Shown: positions 499 to 11,138 of the stretch, piece after piece
How the letters are laid out: each line of letters opens with the position of its first letter
How positions within the stretch are numbered: the stretch's first letter is position 1
DNA from: a virus
Reading direction: 5' to 3' (one strand)
Virus record (IMG/VR): IMGVR_UViG_3300010430_000470
Coordinates: 1-23,113 of that record
DNA length: 23,113 nt
Translations under genes and position numbers: made by a program
The notes under the pieces: generated by a model
The model's input: only the letters and a program-made list of their open reading frames with translations
Told to the model about the DNA's origin: nothing
Database searches by the model: none

Positions 499-923
499 TG
501 CGTCACCTCTTTTGTTTTCTGTGTTCTAATCTCAAAAAAGCCCTCTAATTCAGGATTTAGCCTCATGATCAACCTGGCGTAATAGGGGGAATAGTTGTTA
601 TCCAGCATGAATCTGGATGCGTCCTTTGTTTTTAGGATGTACTTATGCCGGACAATATGGAAAAACCCGCGCAATGAGTATTTATTAACACCGACGGCCT
701 TTAAGTCTTTGGCCATGCTGGTTAGCTTCTCTAATACCCACGGATTGCTGTTGTGGAAGTCGCAGAATGCTTCATAACTCGATGGCGCGCTGTCATCTTG
801 ACGCATAGCCACCAGTTCGCTTAATTTGATATCGCCATAGCCTAAAACTTTAATTCCATCTTTGGTGGCGATAACGGCTTCTTGTTTGTCTGCGTTAAGT
901 TTTGCGGCCACTGTATTGTTCAT
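495..923 (-). CDS. conserved phage protein of unknown function (142 aa)
   Basis: The second half follows a pattern I associate with a widespread phage hypothetical family: a FCDFHNSNPWVLEKL block (compare the family's FHxxNPxVyxxL), then a helix with KAVGVNKYSLRGFFHIVR, then NNYSPYYARLIMRLNPEL followed by GFFEIR. The N-terminal 45 residues are variable. The family usually sits in early or accessory operons of temperate phages and has no established function. The start ATG overlaps the stop of the 143-aa gene upstream by four bases, and the stop overlaps the 57-aa gene in the same way, so the three are translationally coupled. Confidence 0.8.
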   Translation of the reverse strand: MNNTVAAKLNADKQEAVIATKDGIKVLGYGDIKLSELVAMRQDDSAPSSYEAFCDFHNSNPWVLEKLTSMAKDLKAVGVNKYSLRGFFHIVRHKYILKTKDASRFMLDNNYSPYYARLIMRLNPELEGFFEIRTQKTKEVTQ

Positions 924-1351
924 AGCTTTCCACCTGTTGGGCTTTTAAAGCCTTTTAGATCACTGTAATACTCATGGTATTTAGTTGGCATCTGCCAGTT
1001 AGAGATATCCAAGTTAGTGAATGAGTGTTTAACAACGAACTGAAGGTCATCGGCCGGCATTTCGACGGTCACCATTTGTTGTTGTGGTTTTTCATTAAAG
1101 AAGTCCATGGTAAGTGGTTGGCCGAAGTGGTATTCGGGTTCCGGGTCGGTGCTGAAGTGAATCCACCCGTCGCCTGTTAGTGTCATTGTTTTATTTTTAG
1201 TAAAAACAAGCTTCTTCTCGGCCTCATTACGCCAACTGATCAACGGTTTATATCCGATTTCAAGCGCCTTATCTAATACAGCCAGGTTCACTCTGTAATC
1301 ATCACGGATGTCGTAGATGTAGGATTTGAATTGTTTTTGTTTTTGTGTCAT
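920..1351 (-). CDS. hypothetical first gene of the PL operon (143 aa)
   Basis: First gene after PL; its ATG lies only about 24 bases downstream of the predicted transcription start. It begins with a polar Gln/Lys run (MTQKQKQFKS) and contains a Trp/Pro-rich body without membrane segments. In lambda this position holds the antiterminator N, but the protein is not Arg-rich at its N-terminus and is longer than N, so I do not call it N. No clear Shine-Dalgarno sequence precedes the ATG. It ends with a four-base overlap on the 142-aa gene. Function unrecognised. Confidence 0.75.
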   Translation of the reverse strand: MTQKQKQFKSYIYDIRDDYRVNLAVLDKALEIGYKPLISWRNEAEKKLVFTKNKTMTLTGDGWIHFSTDPEPEYHFGQPLTMDFFNEKPQQQMVTVEMPADDLQFVVKHSFTNLDISNWQMPTKYHEYYSDLKGFKSPTGGKL

Positions 1352-1365
1352 TTCGGCTAATAAAT

Positions 1366-1432
1366 GTAATTTGTGTTACGAATATTAAACCAACGTAACT
1401 TTAGTGTCAACTTTAAATGTAATAAAAGTTAC
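1366..1432. promoter_or_regulatory. left operator cluster (three repressor sites)
   Basis: Three 14-bp dyads fit GTAAY-N4-GTTAC: 1366-1379 (GTAAT-TTGT-GTTAC), 1395-1408 (GTAAC-TTTA-GTGTC, one imperfect half) and 1419-1432 (GTAAT-AAAA-GTTAC). The middle site overlaps the -35 of PL, the first covers its transcription start, and the third lies upstream towards the rightward lipoprotein gene. The same motif recurs three times at PR, so these are inferred CI/Cro operators equivalent to lambda oL. Confidence 0.85.
1382..1410 (-). promoter_or_regulatory. PL early-left promoter
   Basis: On the minus strand, TTGACA (1405-1410) and TAATAT (1382-1387) are separated by exactly 17 bases, a near-perfect sigma-70 promoter firing leftward into the 143-aa gene. 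The predicted start is near 1375, inside the first operator, and the -35 overlaps the second operator, so repressor binding should block it directly. Confidence 0.9.
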
Positions 1433-1473
1433 ATTAAATCTTAGATACAATATGAATAGGCTATAGGAGATTT

Positions 1474-1836
1474 ATGATGAGGATTTTTATATTATGTTTT
1501 TGTTTATTCATCACCGGCTGCACTAATGAAAAAGAGCTGTTATATGATGCGTGCTTAAAAGAAGGGCGGCAATATCATCGAGACATTGGATCATTCCCAT
1601 TCTTAACCGATGGGCGGAAGGCTGATGATGTGGTTAAAGAGAAATGTAAAAGGTCACCACACATTTATGGTGAGGTTTCTTATGATCATTCTAAAATAAA
1701 GCACAACTATTGGGTTTATTTAGGGTTGGGTATACCATTGGGTTTGTTTTTGTTGGCGCTTATCATGCCTGTTAAAACCCATAAAAGAGAAGATGTAATT
1801 AAAATGATGGAAGATGAAAAGGATAATGAATCATGA
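1474..1836 (+). CDS. lipoprotein with C-terminal membrane segment (120 aa)
   Basis: The first 16 residues form a lipoprotein signal with lipobox ITGC (Cys16 would be lipidated). The mature part carries two further cysteines (27 and 58), a soluble stretch, then a predicted membrane helix at about 79-99 (WVYLGLGIPLGLFLLALIMP) and a charged tail. A signal plus a second anchor is unusual. AGGAG lies 5-9 bases before the ATG. It is transcribed rightward, divergent from PL, and overlaps the next gene by ATGA, so the two probably form a pair. Position between PL and the repressor suggests expression in the lysogen, for instance as a superinfection-exclusion or conversion gene; this is inference. Confidence 0.75.
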   Translation: MMRIFILCFCLFITGCTNEKELLYDACLKEGRQYHRDIGSFPFLTDGRKADDVVKEKCKRSPHIYGEVSYDHSKIKHNYWVYLGLGIPLGLFLLALIMPVKTHKREDVIKMMEDEKDNES

Positions 1837-2231
1837 ACACCACCGGAGTTGTTGTTATTGCAGTGCTTTTATTAATTGCTATTTTAGCTATAGTTTATGG
1901 GTTAAAAAGTGATCATAAAAATAGTAACAATAAACAGGGCCTTAATAACAATAATCAAGATGAAAAACTTAATGATATAAGTGGCCTTGCTGGTTTCTTA
2001 GCCTGGTTAAATCTAATTGGTGGCACTTTTGGTTTTATATATTACACATTTATTAAAGTGTTGGAGTTAGGTGATTTAAAGGTTAGGGCAAGCAGAACGG
2101 TTATAGAACAGATTCAGGCAGCTCAAGTGAGTTCTGTGTTTTTAGGAATTAGTTTACTTCTTGCAGGGTTGACGCTTTTTGTCATTATTCAACTGTTGCG
2201 TGGAATTTACCGGAATAGTCGGGTTAAATAA
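1833..2231 (+). CDS. three-helix membrane protein (132 aa)
   Basis: Predicted membrane segments lie at about 4-23, 51-73 and 98-122; between the first two is an Asn-rich polar linker with NNKQGLNNNN. The GLAGFLAWLNLIGG segment is loosely like the GGWL start of DUF2569-type inner-membrane proteins, but I would not assign the family. It is coupled by ATGA to the upstream lipoprotein gene, and the pair ends before a fresh promoter at 2265. A membrane complex of the two products at the inner membrane is plausible. The gene is AT-rich compared with the structural genes, which fits a separately acquired cassette. Confidence 0.7.
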   Translation: MNTTGVVVIAVLLLIAILAIVYGLKSDHKNSNNKQGLNNNNQDEKLNDISGLAGFLAWLNLIGGTFGFIYYTFIKVLELGDLKVRASRTVIEQIQAAQVSSVFLGISLLLAGLTLFVIIQLLRGIYRNSRVK

Positions 2232-2264
2232 ACTTTCAATCAGTTAACATAAGTTTAACTTAGA

Positions 2265-2293
2265 TTGAGATTTTGAAACTTAATTACTATAAT
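2265..2293 (+). promoter_or_regulatory. sigma-70 promoter for the DUF2335 gene pair
   Basis: TTGAGA (2265-2270) and TATAAT (2288-2293) with a 17-base spacer, about 45 bases before the 60-aa gene. It carries no copy of the CI operator motif, so it should be active in the lysogen. An inverted repeat AGTTAA/TTAACT (2242-2247, 2255-2260) lies just upstream and may bind a regulator or end the previous transcript. Confidence 0.75.
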
Positions 2294-2344
2294 GGTGCCT
2301 AAAAATATAATAATAAAATCAGTACTAATTTTTGGAGTTAATAG

Positions 2345-2527
2345 ATGAAACGTTTTAAGAGTTTTTGGACGGGATTTGCAAGTATTCTTGTGCTTTTCCC
2401 CTCTAGTGATGTTTCCCATAGTCAATCGGTAGTGGAATTGATGGATAAGAGCTGGCGCCAAGTGGGTGATTCTATGCGTGATTCCAATAAGTCATATGTC
2501 AAAAGAAAAAGACAAAGAGCCGCCTAA
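2345..2527 (+). CDS. small protein preceding DUF2335 gene (60 aa)
   Basis: Begins MKRFKSFWTGFASILVLFPS, a basic N-terminus and a hydrophobic stretch that could be a short membrane segment, followed by a polar helix (DKSWRQVGDSMRD) and a very basic end (KRKRQRAA). GGAG is placed about 9 bases before the ATG. Its 3' end overlaps the start of the DUF2335 gene by 32 bases in another frame, implying coupled translation. I believe similar small proteins precede DUF2335 genes in other prophages, but I cannot verify this here. Function unknown; perhaps a partner of the DUF2335 protein. Confidence 0.65.
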   Translation: MKRFKSFWTGFASILVLFPSSDVSHSQSVVELMDKSWRQVGDSMRDSNKSYVKRKRQRAA

Positions 2528-2927
2528 AGAGGTTCTTGATGTCGATTATGACATTACGGATGCAGTAGGAAGCAAACCGCCGGAGACTGCACAACTCCAA
2601 TCAGTCATGTTTTCGCAACATGAAGGCCCATTACCTCATCCTCAAATATATTCAGAATACGAGAAGGTTCTTCCTGGTGCCGCTGAAAAATTAATGCAAA
2701 TGTCATTAGAATCACATCAGCACATCATGTTTTGCGAAAAAGAAACAATTAAGAATGACTATAAGCTCAAAACCCGTGGCCAAAGATTCGGAATGTCTTC
2801 GGTTTTTCTTGCATTTGTGACATCAGGGCTTCTGGGGTTTTTTAATCATCCTACTGCAGCATCAATTATAGGTGGTGCTACTTTGGTATCTATTGTTGCA
2901 ATTTTTATTACCGGGCGTTCAAAATAA
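2496..2927 (+). CDS. DUF2335 membrane protein (143 aa)
   Basis: Diagnostic DUF2335 features are visible: SQHEGPLPHPQI followed by YEKVLPGAAEKLMQM (family pattern H-x-G-x-lPhP, then Ye-i-PGaA) and a helix ending in charged residues, then two membrane segments at about 100-118 and 122-140. The family consists of small predicted membrane proteins frequent in prophages and has no established function. A GTG at 2466 would add ten residues, but the ATG at 2496 starts directly before the charged MSKEKDKEPP and is preferred. It ends inside a large stem-loop that separates it from the convergent repressor gene. A role in exclusion or lysogenic conversion is inference from position. Confidence 0.85.
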   Translation: MSKEKDKEPPKEVLDVDYDITDAVGSKPPETAQLQSVMFSQHEGPLPHPQIYSEYEKVLPGAAEKLMQMSLESHQHIMFCEKETIKNDYKLKTRGQRFGMSSVFLAFVTSGLLGFFNHPTAASIIGGATLVSIVAIFITGRSK

Positions 2928-2999
2928 AGGTCGCCTGACTCCCGCTAACACCCATGGACTGCAATAGTCGGGTTCACTGTACATCGGTCGGCGACCTTT
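2926..2999. terminator. large structured stem between convergent genes
   Basis: AAAGGTCGCC (2926-2935) pairs perfectly with GGCGACCTTT (2990-2999). The 54-base interior can fold again through TGA-CT-CCCG (2936-2944) with CGGG-TTCA (2969-2976). The outer stem flanked by A and T residues could act as a bidirectional terminator, but the loop is far larger than in ordinary terminators. A small structured RNA is the alternative. Confidence 0.5.
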
Positions 3000-3049
3000 A
3001 ACGTCCATTATCCTTACCGGTGCCGTTAAGTTCAATCGATATATTCTGA

Positions 3050-3070
3050 TAGTGATGTCAATAATCACTA
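3050..3070 (-). terminator. hairpin just after the repressor gene
   Basis: TAGTGAT (3050-3056) and ATCACTA (3064-3070) form a 7-bp stem with a 7-base loop, five bases beyond the repressor stop codon on the minus strand. There is no clear T-run, so it may protect the mRNA end rather than terminate. Confidence 0.35.
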
Positions 3071-3074
3071 CATG

Positions 3075-3758
3075 CTATGGTAATTTCACCGGTCTAAAAT
3101 CAATCACTTTACCAATTATGCGAAATTCACCAAAAAATTTCGGGTAGTCTGCGTTTAGTGGGTTTAGGTAGGGTCTGGCGCCGTCGTACTTCAGCTGCTT
3201 AAATGTGACTGAATCGGCACCGTTTTCTTTAGCGATGACAAAAACACCATCTGCTGTGTCGCCACACTGATCGGGGTCAATGATAATAATACTTCCAGGT
3301 GGGAATGAATAGGGTCCTGATGTGGTGGTCATCGATTCACCGATTACTTTGAGGGCGTATGTCAGTGGCGATACACGCTCATAGGTTGCCACCTTTTCTA
3401 TTTCATCCACATCAGTTTCTACTTCTGCCGGGTGGTAGTCACCTGCCTGAACCCATGAAATTATGGGGATCATATGGGCTTCTGAGTAGATGGTTTCTTC
3501 TGTATTATCACCTACATAATAAATCTTTGGGCTATCTTCCATGATCATTTCATGTCCGAAATAAATATAATCAGGTGTTGTTTTTAGTATCTTGCAAAGT
3601 TTAGTTATATATTCACCTTTTGGGTGGGAATATAGGTCGCCTTGTGATTCCCATTTGCTCACTGCAACACGGCTAACACCTATTAAGTCAGCTAGTTCCT
3701 GCTGCGTTAATTTTATATTTTTGCGCAGGGTCTTAATTCTTTTGCCTGGTTCATTCAT
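3075..3758 (-). CDS. cI: CI-like repressor with S24 autocleavage domain (227 aa)
   Basis: The N-terminal helix-turn-helix of the HTH_3/XRE type spans about residues 18-37 (LTQQELADLIGVSRVAVSKW). The C-terminal LexA/CI S24 peptidase domain shows the cleavage site region WVQAGD (cleavage expected between Ala105 and Gly106), the catalytic serine in GESM (Ser142) and the general-base lysine in FKQL (Lys187). It maintains lysogeny by binding the GTAAY-N4-GTTAC operators and is expected to self-cleave on RecA filaments after DNA damage. A TTG at 3764 could add two residues; the ATG at 3758 is preferred. It is divergent from cro across the PR operators and convergent with the DUF2335 gene. All catalytic positions are intact. 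Confidence 0.95.
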   Translation of the reverse strand: MNEPGKRIKTLRKNIKLTQQELADLIGVSRVAVSKWESQGDLYSHPKGEYITKLCKILKTTPDYIYFGHEMIMEDSPKIYYVGDNTEETIYSEAHMIPIISWVQAGDYHPAEVETDVDEIEKVATYERVSPLTYALKVIGESMTTTSGPYSFPPGSIIIIDPDQCGDTADGVFVIAKENGADSVTFKQLKYDGARPYLNPLNADYPKFFGEFRIIGKVIDFRPVKLP

Positions 3759-3764
3759 AGCCAA

Positions 3765-3770
3765 ATAATA
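3765..3770 (-). promoter_or_regulatory. candidate PRM -10 for cI
   Basis: Minus-strand TATTAT lies seven bases before the cI ATG, with no recognisable -35 at the right distance (ACACAA at 3788-3793, inside the operator at 3783-3796). This is what an activator-dependent maintenance promoter would look like, and it would start transcription at or next to the ATG, giving a leaderless message as in lambda. Inference only. Confidence 0.35.
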
Positions 3771-3782
3771 AACTTATGTTAC

Positions 3783-3860
3783 GTAACTTGTGTTATTTTC
3801 TATTGACTAAATATGTTACTTTCGTTACTATTCAGAAAAATATATGATAACTAAAGTTAC
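3783..3860. promoter_or_regulatory. right operator cluster (three repressor sites)
   Basis: Three dyads of the same family as at PL: 3783-3796 (GTAAC-TTGT-GTTAT), 3815-3828 (GTTAC-TTTC-GTTAC, one half altered) and 3847-3860 (ATAAC-TAAA-GTTAC). Their centres are exactly 32 bp apart. The first lies beside the cI start, the second in the PR spacer and -10, and the third ends two bases before the cro ATG. They correspond to lambda oR; a GTTACGTAAC palindrome (3778-3787) overlaps the first. Confidence 0.85.
3803..3831 (+). promoter_or_regulatory. PR early-right promoter
   Basis: TTGACT (3803-3808) and TACTAT (3826-3831) with a 17-base spacer, directed at cro. The second operator overlaps spacer and -10 and the third covers the 5' leader. 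The predicted start near 3838 leaves a leader of about 25 bases without a clear Shine-Dalgarno sequence. Confidence 0.85.
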
Positions 3861-3862
3861 TA

Positions 3863-4051
3863 ATGTTAAAAAAAGACGTGATTGAATACTTCGGCGGCAC
3901 AATGAAGACCGCTGAGAAGTTAAACATAAAACATCCTGCTGTGTCGAAATGGGGTAAACATATACCCGAACTCCGCGCCTATCAAATTGAAAAATTAACC
4001 GGGGGCCAGTTAAAGGCCGGCGATTACTCCAAAATTCAAAATGGAGTTTAA
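3863..4051 (+). CDS. cro: Cro repressor, P22 Cro type (62 aa)
   Basis: Matches the small Cro family of P22-type phages: N-terminal KKDVIEYFGG, helix-turn-helix at about 14-32 (KTAEKLNIKHPAVSKW), then the family signature IPELRAYQIEKLTGGQL. It binds the operators to shut down early transcription and repressor synthesis during lytic growth. First gene of the PR transcript, opposite to cI. The ATG lies two bases after an operator dyad, so Cro bound there would cover its own start region. Length is normal for the family. Confidence 0.93.
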   Translation: MLKKDVIEYFGGTMKTAEKLNIKHPAVSKWGKHIPELRAYQIEKLTGGQLKAGDYSKIQNGV

Positions 4052-4055
4052 AGCC

Positions 4056-4262
4056 ATGTCCCTCGATCGTAAGTCCATCCACACCAAAATCAGCCCAGAC
4101 CTGCATAAGCAGTTGTCTGTGATGGCCGAGTTCGAGAACAAACCGATGGCTGAACTGGCTGCTTTGATGCTTGAGAAGATGATTGTTGCTGAGTTTCATG
4201 ATTACAGAATAGCATTTGAACGTATGAAAAAGGCGGGAATGATGGGGAAGGTGGGGGATTGA
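4056..4262 (+). CDS. ribbon-helix-helix regulator in the cII position (68 aa)
   Basis: After a short basic start, SIHTKISPDLHKQLSVMAEF looks like the strand and first helix of an Arc/CopG ribbon-helix-helix fold, followed by a second helix (PMAELAALMLEKMIV). The C-terminal tail is helical and basic. In lambda the gene after cro is cII, a helix-turn-helix activator; this protein occupies that place with a different fold. An ATG at 4041 is in frame, but GGAG at 4043-4046 is at the right distance only for the ATG at 4056. Its TGA shares a base with the next start (TGATG, 4260-4264). Likely a DNA-binding early regulator; targets unknown. Confidence 0.8.
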   Translation: MSLDRKSIHTKISPDLHKQLSVMAEFENKPMAELAALMLEKMIVAEFHDYRIAFERMKKAGMMGKVGD

Positions 4263-4882
4263 TGGGGAATTTATTAATCAATGGAAAGTGCGTACCGGCG
4301 AGCGAACTCACCGGCACGACTATTTTTCAAAGTTTACAGGCAACTATCAATGATGCCACTGCATTAATTAAAAATGCTGTGGCAAATACGATGGCTGCCA
4401 CGTTTACTTTGATTTCGAGCGTCTTTTTGGATTTCATGATGAGTCCTCAAAGGCACCCGGAGCTCCGAGCGTTAAAATTCTCGGACTTCTATACCGCGTC
4501 AATTAAACGCGGTTGGAGTGAGCGGTTAACGCGTATGGCATCACTCCGTCAGGGCGGTTGTTCTCTGCAACACGTGCTTTCGGCACGTCTGTACAAAACA
4601 GATAGCAAAAAATCCGCCCCTTTAGCCGCCCTGCCACGGGCAACAAGCGGGGTGGCTACCCGCACTTTTATCTTATCACAATTATGTGAACCGGCTCTGG
4701 TCGATGGCCGTGTAATAAATATCGACTCTGCGCGGGTTTTTCCTCCCTCTCCCTGCGCATCTTTAAGCCCTGGCACAGATAGTCGTCAGGGCTTGTTTTT
4801 ATTGCTCCAAGGTTATGCCTTGATTATGGCCGTCACCGCATCTATGGCGGCCTTTTTTTTAGTTAACGGTCAATTATTATGA
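4262..4882 (+). CDS. unusual structured ORF, possibly Ash-like (206 aa)
   Basis: A 206-codon frame that begins at TGATG with the upstream gene (GGGGGA Shine-Dalgarno before it) and ends by ATGA overlap with the replication gene, so it is bracketed by coupling signals. The N-terminal third looks like real protein (SLQATINDATALIKNAV followed by TMAATFTLISSVF, hydrophobic). From about residue 70 on, the DNA is dominated by inverted repeats and two intrinsic terminators, and the peptide is Arg/Ser/Leu/Pro-rich as in conceptual translations of structured RNA. Its place, and an ending rich in GYALIMAV/AAFFLVNG, recall Ash-family phage ORFs, but this is memory of a style, not a match. It may be a gene, an RNA region, or both. 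Confidence 0.5.
   Translation: MGNLLINGKCVPASELTGTTIFQSLQATINDATALIKNAVANTMAATFTLISSVFLDFMMSPQRHPELRALKFSDFYTASIKRGWSERLTRMASLRQGGCSLQHVLSARLYKTDSKKSAPLAALPRATSGVATRTFILSQLCEPALVDGRVINIDSARVFPPSPCASLSPGTDSRQGLFLLLQGYALIMAVTASMAAFFLVNGQLL
4464..4663 (+). ncRNA. dense hairpin region, candidate regulatory RNA
   Basis: Successive perfect stems: TCCGAG/CTCGGA (4464-4469, 4480-4485); ACCGCGT/ACGCGGT (4493-4499, 4507-4513); GGAGTG/CACTCC (4515-4520, 4542-4547) around an inner GCG/CGC; then CAGGGCGG (4550-4557) with CCGCCCTG (4626-4633) closing an 84-base domain that contains ACGTGC/GCACGT with loop TTTCG (4572-4588) and TCTGT/ACAGA (4588-4602); and GCGGG/CCCGC (4647-4651, 4659-4663). A closing stem with two inner hairpins and a length near 80 is suggestive of a C4-type antisense RNA of P1/P4-like immunity regions; this is a hypothesis. 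Confidence 0.4.
4765..4800 (+). terminator. intrinsic terminator 1 inside the ORF
   Basis: AAGCCCTG (4765-4772) pairs with CAGGGCTT (4787-4794), 8 bp without mismatch, followed by GTTTTT. A canonical rho-independent terminator for PR transcripts. Confidence 0.85.
4828..4860 (+). terminator. intrinsic terminator 2 before the replication gene
   Basis: GGCCGTCA (4828-4835) pairs with TGGCGGCC (4845-4852; one G-U pair) and is followed directly by eight T residues (4853-4860). It lies 18 bases before the replication gene ATG. A small CAAGG/CCTTG hairpin (4808-4822) sits between the two terminators. Confidence 0.88.
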
Positions 4883-5508
4883 GTAAGAAGTTTGTTGCTC
4901 TTGAGTGGGAATTTATACGTGATAAATCTACCACGATGCAGGAGAAATTAGTTATGGCAGAAATAGCGCAATTATCATCAATGGAAAAAGGGTGTTTCGC
5001 TGGAAATGGTCATTTTGCGAAGCTTCTGGGTGTTAAGAAAACAGCCATTTCACGGACGATATCAAGCCTTGAAAAAAAGGGATTTATTACCTCTGAAATT
5101 ACCCCAGGAAGCCGGAATAAAGAGCGTGTGATTACTATTAACAAAATGTTATCAGGTGATAACAAAATGTTATCGCAACCGATAACAAAATGTTTAGAGA
5201 CTAAAGGTAATAACACAAGTATTAATAATACAGTTAATAAAAAAAATACAAAAAAAGTTTTTAAAAAGCCGTCGGTAGAAGAATTAAAAAGCTACTGCCA
5301 AGAAAAATGTTTGTCTGTTGATTGTGAATACTTCTTTTATCACTACGAAGCAAATGGATGGAAGGTCGGAAAGGCGCCGATGAGGGACTGGAAAGCCACG
5401 CTAAAAAACTGGCATCGCAGGCAAGGAAAATTTAAAACCGGCACCAGTCAAAAACAAATCAAGGATAAAGAATTCAAGTCATCACCACCACCGGAGTGGG
5501 CGTTATGA
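4879..5508 (+). CDS. replication initiator, O-like, with internal origin (209 aa)
   Basis: The N-terminal half has a winged-helix/MarR-like region (about 45-80: FAKLLGVKKTAISRTISSLEKKGFI), typical of phage replication proteins that bind iterons. A Lys/Asn-rich linker follows. The C-terminal domain at about 130-180 holds EYFFYHYEANGWKVGK and MRDWKATLKNWHRR, the pattern of DnaT/DnaD-like phage replication proteins. Together with the DnaC-like gene immediately downstream (ATGA overlap at 5505-5508), it should recruit the host DnaB helicase to the origin. Codons at about 87-106 encode iterons, giving the repetitive peptide NKMLSGDNKMLSQ. The start overlaps the preceding ORF by ATGA. Confidence 0.88.
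   Translation: MSKKFVALEWEFIRDKSTTMQEKLVMAEIAQLSSMEKGCFAGNGHFAKLLGVKKTAISRTISSLEKKGFITSEITPGSRNKERVITINKMLSGDNKMLSQPITKCLETKGNNTSINNTVNKKNTKKVFKKPSVEELKSYCQEKCLSVDCEYFFYHYEANGWKVGKAPMRDWKATLKNWHRRQGKFKTGTSQKQIKDKEFKSSPPPEWAL
5139..5270 (+). other. phage replication origin: three iterons plus AT-rich region
   Basis: TAACAAAATGTTATC occurs at 5139-5153 and 5160-5174, and a third partial copy (TAACAAAATGTT) at 5183-5194, spaced 21 and 23 bp, about two helical turns. Each is itself a dyad (GATAAC...GTTATC). Directly after them, 5206-5265 is almost pure A/T, a likely unwinding element. Iterons inside the initiator gene followed by an AT-rich stretch is the lambda ori design (lambda has four iterons). 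Confidence 0.85.
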
Positions 5509-6269
5509 GTGAAGCGATGGAAAACTACAAGGTGCCGGCTGTTGAACAGCGTGAGATTGATGGCAGATGTACTAAGCATGGACCATTCACAGCAAAGCAA
5601 ACTCTGTTTAACCGCAAATGGATGGGTGGCCGGTGCCCTAAGTGCGAAAAAGACAATAACTCAAACGATGTGGAGAAGCTTCGTAAATTAAGCGAAGCGG
5701 CCAAGTTAGCGAAAATTCCAAAGCGGTTTAAATCAGCTTCGTTCAATGGTTATCAGGTTGAAGATGATAATTCTATGCAACGGTTCGCTTATGCTACGGT
5801 TAAGAAATATGCTGATAACTGGAAGTCACGGTTGGAGGCTGGCGGTGGTTTGACCTTATTCGGTAAATGCGGCACCGGTAAGACACACTTAGTCTGTGCC
5901 CTGGCTAATCACATCATTCAATCTGGTGGTGCCGGGGTGGTGTATCGTGCTGTGTATGACGTAGTGAAGTCAGTGAAGTCTACATGGGCCCGTGATAGCC
6001 AGATGTCGGAAGCCGAAGCAATTAATAATTTCGTTAAGCCTGATTTTTTAATCATTGATGAGGTTGGGGTTCAATTTGGAAGCGAAGCTGAGCGTTTAAT
6101 CTTATTCGAGATACTTAATCGCCGGTATGAGAATGTGAAGCCGACAATAATCGTCAGTAACTTAGATGATGAAGAATTAACCAAGTGCCTGGGTGAGCGG
6201 GTTATTGATCGTCTGAAGGAGGGTGGTGGAGCCCGGATTGGGTTCAGCTGGGGGAGCTATAGGAAATGA
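5505..6269 (+). CDS. DnaC-like helicase loader ATPase (254 aa)
   Basis: AAA+ ATPase of the DnaC/IstB type. A zinc-ribbon-like N-terminus has Cys22, His25, Cys44 and Cys47 (RCTKHG and RCPKC). Walker A is GKCGTGKTHL (Lys126, Thr127), Walker B is FLIIDE (181-186), sensor-type VSNL is at 218-220, and conserved arginines lie in GERVIDRL. It should load the host replicative helicase at the phage origin together with the upstream initiator. The ATG at 5505 overlaps the previous stop and has GGAG about 10 bases upstream; the in-frame GTG at 5496 is less likely. The stop overlaps the next gene by ATGA. Length is close to E. coli DnaC (245). Confidence 0.93.
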   Translation: MSEAMENYKVPAVEQREIDGRCTKHGPFTAKQTLFNRKWMGGRCPKCEKDNNSNDVEKLRKLSEAAKLAKIPKRFKSASFNGYQVEDDNSMQRFAYATVKKYADNWKSRLEAGGGLTLFGKCGTGKTHLVCALANHIIQSGGAGVVYRAVYDVVKSVKSTWARDSQMSEAEAINNFVKPDFLIIDEVGVQFGSEAERLILFEILNRRYENVKPTIIVSNLDDEELTKCLGERVIDRLKEGGGARIGFSWGSYRK

Positions 6270-6466
6270 GAGCACGAGACAGACACTTAAACACAATTCA
6301 TTTAATCAGAGAGGCTTTAAGTCAAGGGCCTAAGAATATTGAGCAGATACATGAAGCGACCGGTGTTCACCGGATAACAATCATTGAGCGGCTTGCTGAT
6401 GCTGAGTGTTGGGGAATCGTTAGTCGTGATGATGAAATGTTTAGCTTAGTTCAGGTGGTTTCATGA
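6266..6466 (+). CDS. small helix-turn-helix protein (66 aa)
   Basis: After a basic start the sequence has three short helices, of which IEQIHEATGVHRITIIERLADAE reads as a helix-turn-helix, followed by WGIVSRDDEMFSLV as a likely beta wing. This is the plan of a minimal winged-helix DNA-binding domain. It is coupled by ATGA to both neighbours in the replication operon, where similar small proteins are common. Target and role are not visible. Confidence 0.75.
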   Translation: MRARDRHLNTIHLIREALSQGPKNIEQIHEATGVHRITIIERLADAECWGIVSRDDEMFSLVQVVS

Positions 6467-6735
6467 ACCCCTACAAATGGAAGTACCTCACCCCTTACCA
6501 GCGCATTAGATACAAGCTGAAACAGGAATTAAAAAAAGATAAGCCCGGGTTCTGGTGCCGCTTAAAGATTATGTGGTATCGACAGCTTATTGAGCAGATA
6601 CGGTTTAACCAGTTCACCAAAAACGTACACAACCCCGATTTACACTTAAAACCACATCAGGAGATAAACAATGATCATCTTACTAGTTTTAATTCAGATT
6701 TACAGTCACACAGCGCAAAACATCGAAGCCGATAG
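6463..6735 (+). CDS. hypothetical basic protein (90 aa)
   Basis: An Arg/Lys/Trp/Tyr-rich N-terminal half (YQRIRYKLKQELKKDKPG, then WCRLKIMWYRQLIEQIRF) predicts two amphipathic basic helices. The C-terminal third is polar and low in conservation signals, and its DNA overlaps the next gene by 65 bases, so it may be a dispensable extension. The start overlaps the preceding TGA by ATGA. Not recognised; could bind nucleic acid by charge. Confidence 0.65.
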   Translation: MNPYKWKYLTPYQRIRYKLKQELKKDKPGFWCRLKIMWYRQLIEQIRFNQFTKNVHNPDLHLKPHQEINNDHLTSFNSDLQSHSAKHRSR

Positions 6736-6832
6736 CCGGTGCCGAAACACGCCTGATATCGATTATCAGATAAATAACCAGATCGTTTGCTTACCTACTG
6801 ATTTGATTTATCGGGATGGGTTTGAGTTATGA
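6671..6832 (+). CDS. small protein with N-terminal signal or anchor (53 aa)
   Basis: A 53-residue frame with an excellent ribosome binding site (AGGAG, 7 bases before the ATG). The N-terminus MIILLVLIQIYSHTAQNIEA looks like a signal peptide cleavable near TAQ, followed by a short mature part with two cysteines that could form a disulfide in the periplasm. It starts inside the 90-aa gene in another frame and ends in an ATGA overlap with the next membrane protein. Family not recognised. Confidence 0.7.
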   Translation: MIILLVLIQIYSHTAQNIEADSRCRNTPDIDYQINNQIVCLPTDLIYRDGFEL

Positions 6833-7002
6833 GTACAAGTACATTCACAAGCATTCTGTTGTTGATATTTATCACTTTGAAACTGACAGGTCATATTACT
6901 TGGTCTTGGTGGTGGGTGTTTGCTCCTGTGTGGATGCCTTTGGTCATTGCTTTGGCTGGCCTATTGTTTCTATTTATTGTTAAAGAGTTTAATCGATTAT
7001 GA
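6829..7002 (+). CDS. small TMEM185-like membrane protein (57 aa)
   Basis: Two membrane segments surround the motif LKLTGHITWSWWWVFAPVWMPL, which I recognise from short phage and bacterial membrane proteins annotated as transmembrane Fragile-X-F-associated (TMEM185-like). These have no known function but recur in early regions of temperate phages. It begins and ends with ATGA overlaps, confirming the boundaries. Likely an inner-membrane protein. Confidence 0.78.
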   Translation: MSTSTFTSILLLIFITLKLTGHITWSWWWVFAPVWMPLVIALAGLLFLFIVKEFNRL

Positions 7003-7181
7003 GTAAGGATAAATTAAAGCCGTGCCCTTTCTGCGGTTCTCATTAAGTTGATTTGGTTAAAGATGGTGAGCATGTGTTTGCGTGTTGCGGGCGGTGTTGT
7101 GCATGTACGCGTTATGTTCATCATGATGATCGCGCTATCGAATTATGGAATAAGCGGGATGGTGGCGGTAGTGAGTGTTGA
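6999..7181 (+). pseudogene. Lar-like zinc protein interrupted by in-frame TAA
   Basis: The frame begins MSKDKLKPCPFCGSH, meets TAA at 7044-7046, and continues without another stop as VDLVKDGEHVFACCGRC and then RAIELWNKRDGGGSEC to TGA at 7179-7181. This is the full pattern of Lar-family restriction-alleviation proteins (LKPCPFCG, a second CxxC, then AI-x-WN-R). A Glu (GAA) would be usual at the stop position, so one G-to-T change explains it. The start is coupled to the upstream gene by ATGA. Either an inactivated gene, a readthrough case or a sequencing error. The family relieves host type I restriction. Confidence 0.8.
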
Positions 7182-7356
7182 TGATATGTTGAACTGGGTG
7201 AAATTAGAGCATCCAGATGCGCGGGTTAGGCCGGATAAGGAAGGGAATATGTTTTTACACTTTGGACGGATTCATCGTAGAACGATTGCGATGTTTAGGT
7301 CTGATGATGCTGAGCGTCTTAAGGAGCTGGCTGATTTGTATGGACCAAAAGACTGA
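7171..7356 (+). CDS. hypothetical protein (61 aa)
   Basis: Starts at GTG 7171 (MSVDDMLNWVKLEHPDARV) or at the internal ATG 7186; the GTG is preferred because it preserves the short overlap with the preceding frame and has purine-rich sequence before it. The protein reads as an alpha/beta fold with VRPDKEGNMFLHFGR as a beta hairpin and SDDAERLKELADLYGP as a terminal helix. Not recognised. The stop overlaps the next gene by 17 bases in another frame. Confidence 0.6.
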   Translation: MSVDDMLNWVKLEHPDARVRPDKEGNMFLHFGRIHRRTIAMFRSDDAERLKELADLYGPKD

Positions 7357-7534
7357 AGATTATCGACGTGAATGTGAAGCCAGAGAGTGGATTAAGCGTG
7401 GATATTCGACACCGGCAAGGATTAAGCAGTTAAGAAAACGAATTACTGATCAGCGGGGTGCCGATGCTGCTGATGAATTAATTATCGAAATGAGAAAGCA
7501 ATGGCAGTTATTAAAAAAGACAAACGTGTTTTAG
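7340..7534 (+). CDS. small phage protein of the DUF7696 style (64 aa)
   Basis: Begins MDQKTEDYRRECEAREWIKRG and continues with a basic helix containing RKRITDQRGADAADEL, a pattern I associate with small phage proteins (YRRQCEAR followed by a K-RG-EAA segment, DUF7696). All-helical, hydrophilic, cytoplasmic, function unknown. It starts inside the 61-aa gene and its 3' end overlaps the HNH gene by 34 bases. Frame and length are clear; the family name is from memory. Confidence 0.65.
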   Translation: MDQKTEDYRRECEAREWIKRGYSTPARIKQLRKRITDQRGADAADELIIEMRKQWQLLKKTNVF

Positions 7535-8791: not shown

Positions 8792-8817
8792 AAACCTGCC
8801 ATCCGGCGGGTTTTTTT
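8792..8817 (+). terminator. late terminator tR'
   Basis: Stem of about nine pairs: AAACCTGCC (8792-8800), loop ATCC, GGCGGGTTT (8805-8813), running into a seven-T tail (8811-8817). It lies immediately before the endolysin, so unmodified polymerase from PR' would make only a leader of roughly 40 bases. Confidence 0.9.
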
Positions 8818-10523: not shown

Positions 10524-10585
10524 GGGTCCTTTCTGGGGCCTTGCTTACGGGGGCTGGCGAGTGCGAGATTCCGCTAGATTTATGG
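10524..10585 (+). other. lambda-type cos site
   Basis: GGGTCCTTTCTGG (10524-10536) is nearly identical to the lambda cosQ core, which as I recall it reads GGGTCCTTTCCGG. Eight bases further, TTACGGGGG (10545-10553) corresponds to the lambda TTACGGGG at cosN, followed by a GC-rich stretch and GCTAGATTTATG (10573-10584; lambda has GCTATTTATG). The order cosQ-cosN, the position between the lysis genes and the small terminase, and the gpA-type terminase all agree. The nick positions are not determined; by analogy a 12-base cohesive end would begin near 10550. Confidence 0.82.
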
Positions 10586-10610
10586 TGCCATAGGTTGTTG
10601 TTGTTTTGTT

Positions 10611-11138
10611 ATGAAAGTTAGGAAGTCAGAACCGGTACTGTTCAATAAGACCCAGTCTGCTGCATTTTTTCAGGTCAGCACCCAGGCTTTTTCTGCCTGG
10701 GATGTGGAGCCAGTCAAAAAGTCTGGCCGTGAAGTCTTTTACGACTTACGTGAACTGGTGGCCTATCGGCATGAGAATCCAGACGATGAAGATGGTGAGT
10801 TAAACCTAACTGAAGAACGCGCAAAGCTTACTAAAGAGCAAAGAATCAAAACAAACCTTGAGCGTAAACAGCTTGAAGGGAAATTAATGGATGTTGATTT
10901 CGTTGTGTTGAATTACACGAAAATGGCTACCGCCCTTCGACAGAAATTATTATCAACCCCCACCAAATTAGCCAAGGACTTAACAAATATAAGTAAGCCA
11001 GCCGAAGTGCAGCAGATACTTAAAGACCACATACAAGAAGTATTGACAGAAATATCAAGTGAGCAATTTTCAGCAGATATCGGAATTGATGTCGACCGCA
11101 CGCTTGCGAAGCTTGAAGCAATGCAAGCCACCTCCTGA
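10611..11138 (+). CDS. terminase small subunit, Nu1-like (175 aa)
   Basis: The N-terminal region (about 10-50) has NKTQSAAFFQVSTQAFSAWDVEPV, the winged-helix pattern of Nu1-type DNA packaging proteins that bind cos. A charged central helix (TEERAKLTKEQRIKTNLERK) and a C-terminal helical region for assembly with the large subunit follow. It recognises phage DNA at cos, about 60 bases upstream. Length is close to lambda Nu1 (181). No clear Shine-Dalgarno sequence precedes the ATG, which follows a T/G-rich stretch. The large subunit starts inside its 3' end. Confidence 0.88.
   Translation: MKVRKSEPVLFNKTQSAAFFQVSTQAFSAWDVEPVKKSGREVFYDLRELVAYRHENPDDEDGELNLTEERAKLTKEQRIKTNLERKQLEGKLMDVDFVVLNYTKMATALRQKLLSTPTKLAKDLTNISKPAEVQQILKDHIQEVLTEISSEQFSADIGIDVDRTLAKLEAMQATS

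Follow-up and report, generated by a model that had tools for sequence, protein, structure and literature searches.

Which kind of element occupies the stretch between the cro gene and the replication genes of an uncultured phage that, as our best guess, is temperate and lambda-like? In the window (the whole stretch of DNA analysed here, 23,113 nt, positions 1 to 23,113 of IMG/VR virus record IMGVR_UViG_3300010430_000470), this place is taken by an open reading frame (ORF) for which a sequence-only reading had proposed a dual role, namely as a coupled gene and as a structured RNA with two intrinsic terminators that could act as a switch ahead of replication. Here, we ask whether frame and fold are both real, whether they are kept in relatives, and how such an element might work. 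Its setting, which we best guess to be the rightward early operon of the phage with the element as one of its modules, is as follows.

3075-3764, minus strand: CI-type repressor gene, marking the gene order of the window
3803-3831, + strand: PR-like promoter (TTGACT-17-TACTAT, 9/12 consensus; alone not above chance and placed by its position before cro)
3863-4051, + strand: cro (P22_Cro family, PF14549, E 2e-22)
4041-4262, + strand: gene of a small Arc/HicB-like ribbon-helix-helix regulator (phrog_7146, E 4.8e-15)
4262-4882, + strand: ORF of the dual element, 206 codons, between the Arc/HicB-like regulator and rep
4879-5508, + strand: rep, replication initiation gene with a winged-helix N-terminus and a weak Shine-Dalgarno sequence of its own
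5139-5197, + strand: three iteron-like repeats TAACAAAATGTTATC inside rep
5505-6269, + strand: gene of a DnaC-like helicase loader (phrog_50, E 5e-69)

Iteron-like repeats are typical of an origin, and those inside rep probably mark the likely origin of this phage. The hairpin field itself was considered as an origin and rejected, the iteron-like repeats sitting in rep. In the only divergent relative of the element (IMGVR_UViG_3300029585_000175, hereafter L017), seven iteron-like repeats around TTCCGAAAACGGAA are likewise found inside the replication gene (L017 3294-3479).

The open reading frame

The ORF runs on the + strand for 206 codons plus stop and is joined to both neighbours in the way that had been described: it starts in the TGATG at 4260-4264, of which 4260-4262 form the stop of the preceding gene, and its end overlaps rep in the ATGA at 4879-4882. 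In 3000 dinucleotide-preserving shuffles the frame was never open, which holds equally for the ORF of L017, and the five remaining frames of 4262-4882 contain 7-17 stops each. The Shine-Dalgarno sequence of the ORF (-9.0 kcal/mol) is the best among the starts tested, that of rep being weak (-2.4 kcal/mol). Together, the strong site of the ORF and the weak one of rep would fit translational coupling in the window without proving it; the arrangement that suggests it there, with the ATGA overlap and the weak rep site, is not kept in L017.

The in-frame codon statistics lie at the low end of the range for genes of this phage, with negative values for the other frames (slight noise comes from the dnaC gene, whose frame was off by one base in the underlying table), and by this measure the ORF appears to be a weak but ordinary gene of the phage. 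No protein family was found for it in Pfam, PHROGs, or NCBIfam (E <= 5 or 10). An Ash- or Icd-like protein, which had been brought up by analogy, finds no support, the ORF being without a match in the Pfam, NCBIfam, and PHROG models. An AlphaFold model with an input of two sequences reached a mean pLDDT of 37.6 and is uninformative.

RNA structure and terminators

The field of hairpins claimed for the ORF is clearly borne out by folding: the minimum free energy of the ORF RNA is -230.2 kcal/mol as compared to -180.3 +/- 5.5 kcal/mol for dinucleotide shuffles (z -9.05; z-scores and E-values are shuffle-based in this work). When the protein was held constant and synonymous codons were permuted, the fold still stood at z -7.5 to -7.7, a value that none of 25 further gene pieces from the window reached (z -3.1 to +1.8 in the same control), and it is therefore explained neither by composition nor by the encoded protein. 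The structure includes a multi-branched domain closed by a long-range helix (4285-4292/4661-4668) of 8 Watson-Crick pairs, 3 of which are kept in L017. Its parts are listed below.

4285-4668, + strand: multi-branched RNA domain, within the ORF and conserved with L017
4291-4318, + strand: helix A (4291-4297/4312-4318), pairs identical in the window and L017
4327-4412, + strand: long hairpin B, outer stem TCAAAG/CTTTGA invariant, covariation in the inner pairs
4413-4462, + strand: hairpin C, outer TTTCG/CGRAG, inner GUCUUU/AAAGGC with one pair changed on both sides
4466-4483, + strand: hairpin D, CGAG...CTCG
4494-4512, + strand: hairpin E, CCGCGT-CAATTAA-ACGCGG in the window and CCGCAC-CAATTAA-GTGCGG in L017
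4514-4548, + strand: hairpin F, stem kept despite mostly different sequence
4562-4602, + strand: hairpin G, stem kept, four pairs changed on both sides
4617-4652, + strand: hairpin H, apex GCYCTGCYAMGRGC, covarying

Hairpin E offers the clearest covariation, its loop being invariant while two pairs are changed on both sides. The stretch ACTTTGATTTCGANCNTCTTTTTGGNTTTCAT (window 4406-4437) is near-identical in the window and L017 at every codon position, beyond what the fold needs, and may be a candidate binding site.

Downstream of this domain, and still inside the ORF, a strict scan recovered both of the intrinsic terminators that had been claimed.

4764-4802, + strand: intrinsic terminator T1, inside the ORF, found by strict scan, stem pairing probability 0.92-1.0
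4828-4860, + strand: intrinsic terminator T2, inside the ORF, found by strict scan, stem pairing probability 0.92

The stem of T1 (4764-4795) has 11 pairs (-18.0 kcal/mol) and is followed by TTTTTATTGC, that of T2 (4828-4852) has 8 pairs (-12.2 kcal/mol) and is followed by T8. Over the 23 kb, the strict scan of both strands gave only four sites, T1 and T2 and two others at 8793 and 16767 that both lie between ORFs, and shuffles of the 621-nt ORF yielded 0.018 strict terminators on average and two at once in none of 500. A generic terminator scanner missed both T1 and T2, presumably since it allows loops of 8 or fewer only. The sequence CGTCAGGGC occurs twice, at 4547-4555 (the end of hairpin F) and at 4784-4792 (the 3' arm of T1), so that T1 could pair in alternative ways.

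Conservation in a divergent relative

Relatives were sought by BLAST (phages, plasmids, and E. coli genomes), by scans of species genomes, and by protein and DNA pattern scans of IMG/VR, most of the fetched IMG/VR loci being screened with the covariance model R1. BLAST of phages, plasmids, and E. coli genomes gave no homologue of the element, and neither did 84,980 species genomes, which were scanned twice. The IMG/VR scans returned nothing beyond the near-identical contig IMGVR_UViG_3300006467_000460 and L017/L094; the sole divergent relative, L017, was reached via the terminase. Weak matches in LR745208 and Vibrio phage VP41s3 were judged to be chance, and in a further locus (L095) the DNA pattern is shared by chance and located in an unrelated gene. 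Conservation is thus read from two independent sequences only, the window and L017, both of which are metagenomic.

The ORF of L017 (1106-1576) shares 38 % amino acid identity with that of the window over 142 residues (E 8e-16) and is likewise placed between a cro-like and a replication gene. Between window positions 900-7500 and L017, the element is the only DNA similarity (71 % over 210 nt), and no homology could be detected between the cro proteins or between the rep proteins of the two phages, all of which marks the element as a conserved module within mosaic surroundings. The structural genes of the two phages share 61 % identity.

The fold is conserved along with the sequence. Over about 415 aligned columns of the two sequences, the consensus fold has a z-score of -6.8 against column shuffles, of which 0/300 were as good. 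It comprises 85 pairs that fit both sequences, 54 identical, 10 changed on one side, and 21 changed on both sides, with none broken, while 200 column-shuffled alignments gave means of 54.6 pairs and 10.6 double changes (maxima 70 and 19). The check for covariation in the stems that had been suggested for homologous regions hence comes out in favour of the fold in the one relative, L017. Folding by itself leaves the strand undecided: the same alignment, when reverse-complemented, scores z -8.9 versus -6.6 for the + strand, and without G-U pairs the energies are equal on both strands. From the direction of the genes and of the two terminators, we infer that the structured RNA is that of the + strand.

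For the reading frame, the comparison of synonymous and nonsynonymous change gave a divided picture. The distal codons 118-145 bear the mark of coding constraint, since the differences between the window and L017 are found there mainly at position 3 (20/27, versus 19/54 for positions 1 and 2; p 0.002). In codons 46-90, in which the hairpin sequences are most conserved, position 3 is not enriched for differences (p 0.33). The dN/dS ratio amounts to 0.39 overall and to 0.84 across the first 85 aligned codons, both rough figures given the uncertain alignment of codons 88-120. With the hairpins and the open frame both kept in the divergent L017, the proposal of a dual coding and RNA element gains support, and sequence comparison indicates that about 385 nt are under RNA-level and coding constraint at once. 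Conserved RNA folds this large are rarely seen within a frame that is itself under constraint.

The 3' part of the element tells a different story. The ORF of L017 has 156 codons and is separated from rep by two minus-strand genes; the stretch before rep has no significant similarity to the 3' terminator region of the window, and its folding is not unusual. T1, T2, and the overlap of ORF and rep were not found in L017 and are thus features of the window phage, outside the shared module, so that conservation of the terminators or of the rep coupling is not supported. This weakens the idea of one complete switch between cro and the replication genes, which is supported in part only: the module and its position are kept, but the terminators and the ATGA overlap are seen only in the window phage. 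This suggests that the conserved part is an RNA-plus-frame module and that the stop signals downstream of it may be interchangeable.

Comparison with known systems

The structured immunity RNAs of phages P1 and P4 had been named as models for the element, and membership in the C4 family was the first point to be settled. Neither at the gathering threshold nor at E <= 5 did Rfam give a relevant family in the element; C4 (RF01695) had no match in 4200-4950 at E <= 5 and none in L017 at E <= 1, and neither isrK (RF01394) nor the c4-a1b1 target sites (RF03163) had a match in the element region. The same Rfam search found all three in phage P4 (C4, E 2.4e-14; isrK, 4e-12; c4-a1b1, 2e-9), which speaks against C4-family membership of the element. 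Antisense duplexes to the translation starts of ORF and rep were, at best, no better than those of shuffled regions in either phage. Direct repeats join the start of the ORF to that of rep (4259-4274/4901-4916, 14/16; 4277-4287/4977-4987, 11/11); these top two matches exceed shuffles with a post hoc p of about 0.003 and are not present in L017. C4-type target sites formed by these repeats were considered and rejected, as they are missing from L017 and are not matched by any conspicuous complementary antisense segment.

As an analogy, an ORF over a structured RNA is nevertheless sound, since the C4 RNA of P4 (8420-8507) sits within the annotated cI ORF. Both systems place a structured RNA inside an ORF upstream of replication genes, and premature termination, which is part of the CI RNA control of P4, is proposed for the element as well. 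In contrast to P4, the domain of the element measures about 385 nt rather than 87, showed no a1/b1 or a2/b2 target sites, and is accompanied by intrinsic terminators within the ORF; its fold also exceeds what the protein needs (z -7.5), whereas the structure of the P4 cI ORF is no greater than its protein requires (z 0.15).

Among known systems, IsrK-orf45-anrP of Gifsy-1 comes closest in function as a precedent for combining a small RNA with a coupled ORF; there, an ORF lies over alternative RNA structures and is translationally coupled to the next gene (PMC4825925), as may hold for the element. Here, however, the next gene is a replication initiator instead of anrP, the isrK model is unmatched, and no upstream small RNA terminator was seen at the element. 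In the pyrL leader of E. coli pyrBI, a trailing ribosome prevents the hairpin of an intrinsic terminator from forming (PMC5021804). The element resembles pyrL in having intrinsic terminators, T1 and T2, within an open frame that is presumably translated, and differs by its 206 codons, its conserved multi-hairpin domain, its two terminators, and the lack of any known nucleotide sensing. GOLLD and ROOL, large ornate noncoding RNAs of bacteria and phages (PMC12286853), are similarly large and branched; unlike these, the element overlaps a constrained frame, and it matches no Rfam family.

Possible mechanism and alternative explanations

We tentatively propose that the element is a ribosome-gated read-through control for the replication genes, a reading that we regard as a real possibility though short of probable. 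Ribosomes following closely behind RNA polymerase in the ORF would prevent the hairpins of T1 and T2 from forming, and the same ribosomes would reach the start of rep, so that rep and dnaC are made. If translation were slow, blocked, or uncoupled, as the folded domain may promote, transcription would end at T1 or T2 and no rep would be produced. The conserved RNA domain would set the balance between these outcomes, either via the progress of ribosomes or by contacting RNA polymerase or a host factor, and the terminators would be the phage-specific output of the module. These steps we infer; what was found is an open frame, a conserved fold with covariation, a coding signal, and two terminators. 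Ribosome gating is put first because, in the window, the terminators lie inside a presumably translated frame and rep is without a good ribosome site. Against it stands that translation-coupled attenuation alone would have no need of a conserved fold of 385 nt and that T1, T2, and the coupling of ORF and rep appear to be absent from L017.

An unlikely competitor is a cis-acting RNA antiterminator similar to put of HK022, in which the nascent fold would bind RNA polymerase and let it pass downstream terminators, with the frame being secondary. The put RNA of the PR transcript passes intrinsic and Rho-dependent terminators without phage proteins, and putR, like the element, is located a few hundred nt downstream of PR (PMC9378689); the element would likewise be a conserved stem-loop RNA in a PR early transcript before terminators and replication genes. 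It is the RNA module, not the terminators, that the window and L017 share, and in L017, where no other + strand promoter-like site was seen before rep, rightward transcripts must cross about 1.1 kb antisense to two minus-strand genes before reaching it. Both the shared fold and this antisense crossing are better explained by put-like antitermination than by ribosome gating. However, put has two stem-loops in about 70 nt and no coding role is described for it (PMC9378689), as compared to about 385 nt and eight stems here, the covariance model R1 finds no match in HK022 28000-34000, and ribosomes in the ORF would unfold the RNA, yet the frame stays open. A processed or terminated small RNA of the C4 or IsrK type, acting in trans or on its own messenger, is rather unlikely. 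The neighbourhood upstream of replication genes and the ORF over structured RNA would be the same, the terminators would define a 3' end, and C4 within the cI ORF of P4 and IsrK-orf45-anrP (PMC4825925) provide precedents; but C4, isrK, and c4-a1b1 all go unmatched where P4 gives all three, complementarity to the starts of ORF and rep remains within shuffles in both phages, and this phage already carries a CI/Cro-type switch.

The frame could also encode a plain small phage protein, with the fold affecting only the expression or stability of its own message. The position-3 excess in codons 118-145 (p 0.002), the overall dN/dS of 0.39, and a hydrophobic stretch in the L017 protein (residues 40-58) argue for this explanation, which we nonetheless consider quite improbable in view of codons 46-90 (p 0.33), the dN/dS of 0.84 in the first 85 aligned codons, the lack of a Pfam, PHROGs, or NCBIfam family, and the AlphaFold pLDDT of 37.6 (two sequences). 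Very improbable, finally, is that the inverted repeats act as DNA, providing a site for replication or for the primosome on single-stranded DNA. The element does adjoin rep, and once G-U pairs are disallowed the two strands have the same folding energy, but in both phages the iteron-like repeats are inside rep; 20 G-U cells among the + strand consensus pairs also speak against a DNA role, without being decisive.

If ribosome gating were true, the phage would tie its commitment to replication to the translation state of the host. It would do so through an element whose sequence has been kept (71 % over 210 nt) in a place where cro and rep were exchanged, with structural genes that have diverged to 61 % identity. 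It would also be a sequence-unrelated addition to the few RNA switches of phage early operons (C4, IsrK, and put). That the element represents a new class, i. e., a multi-branched, dual-coding phage RNA of about 385 nt that serves as a portable cro-replication module in unrelated neighbourhoods and gates replication, is conceivable, if on the whole somewhat doubtful.

Mosaic surroundings of the element

In L017, minus-strand cargo genes (525-977, 1570-2199, and 2204-2650) flank the element on both sides between cro and rep, and one of them has a weak holin-like PHROG match. In the window, a minus-strand gene at 491-890 (phrog_13625, function unknown) shares 64 % identity with the L017 contig in unrelated surroundings. 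Furthermore, the window and L017 are 81 % identical over 90 nt just before the small terminase gene (window 10524-10612), as compared to 61 % in the structural genes, and this stretch is likely to be a cos site.
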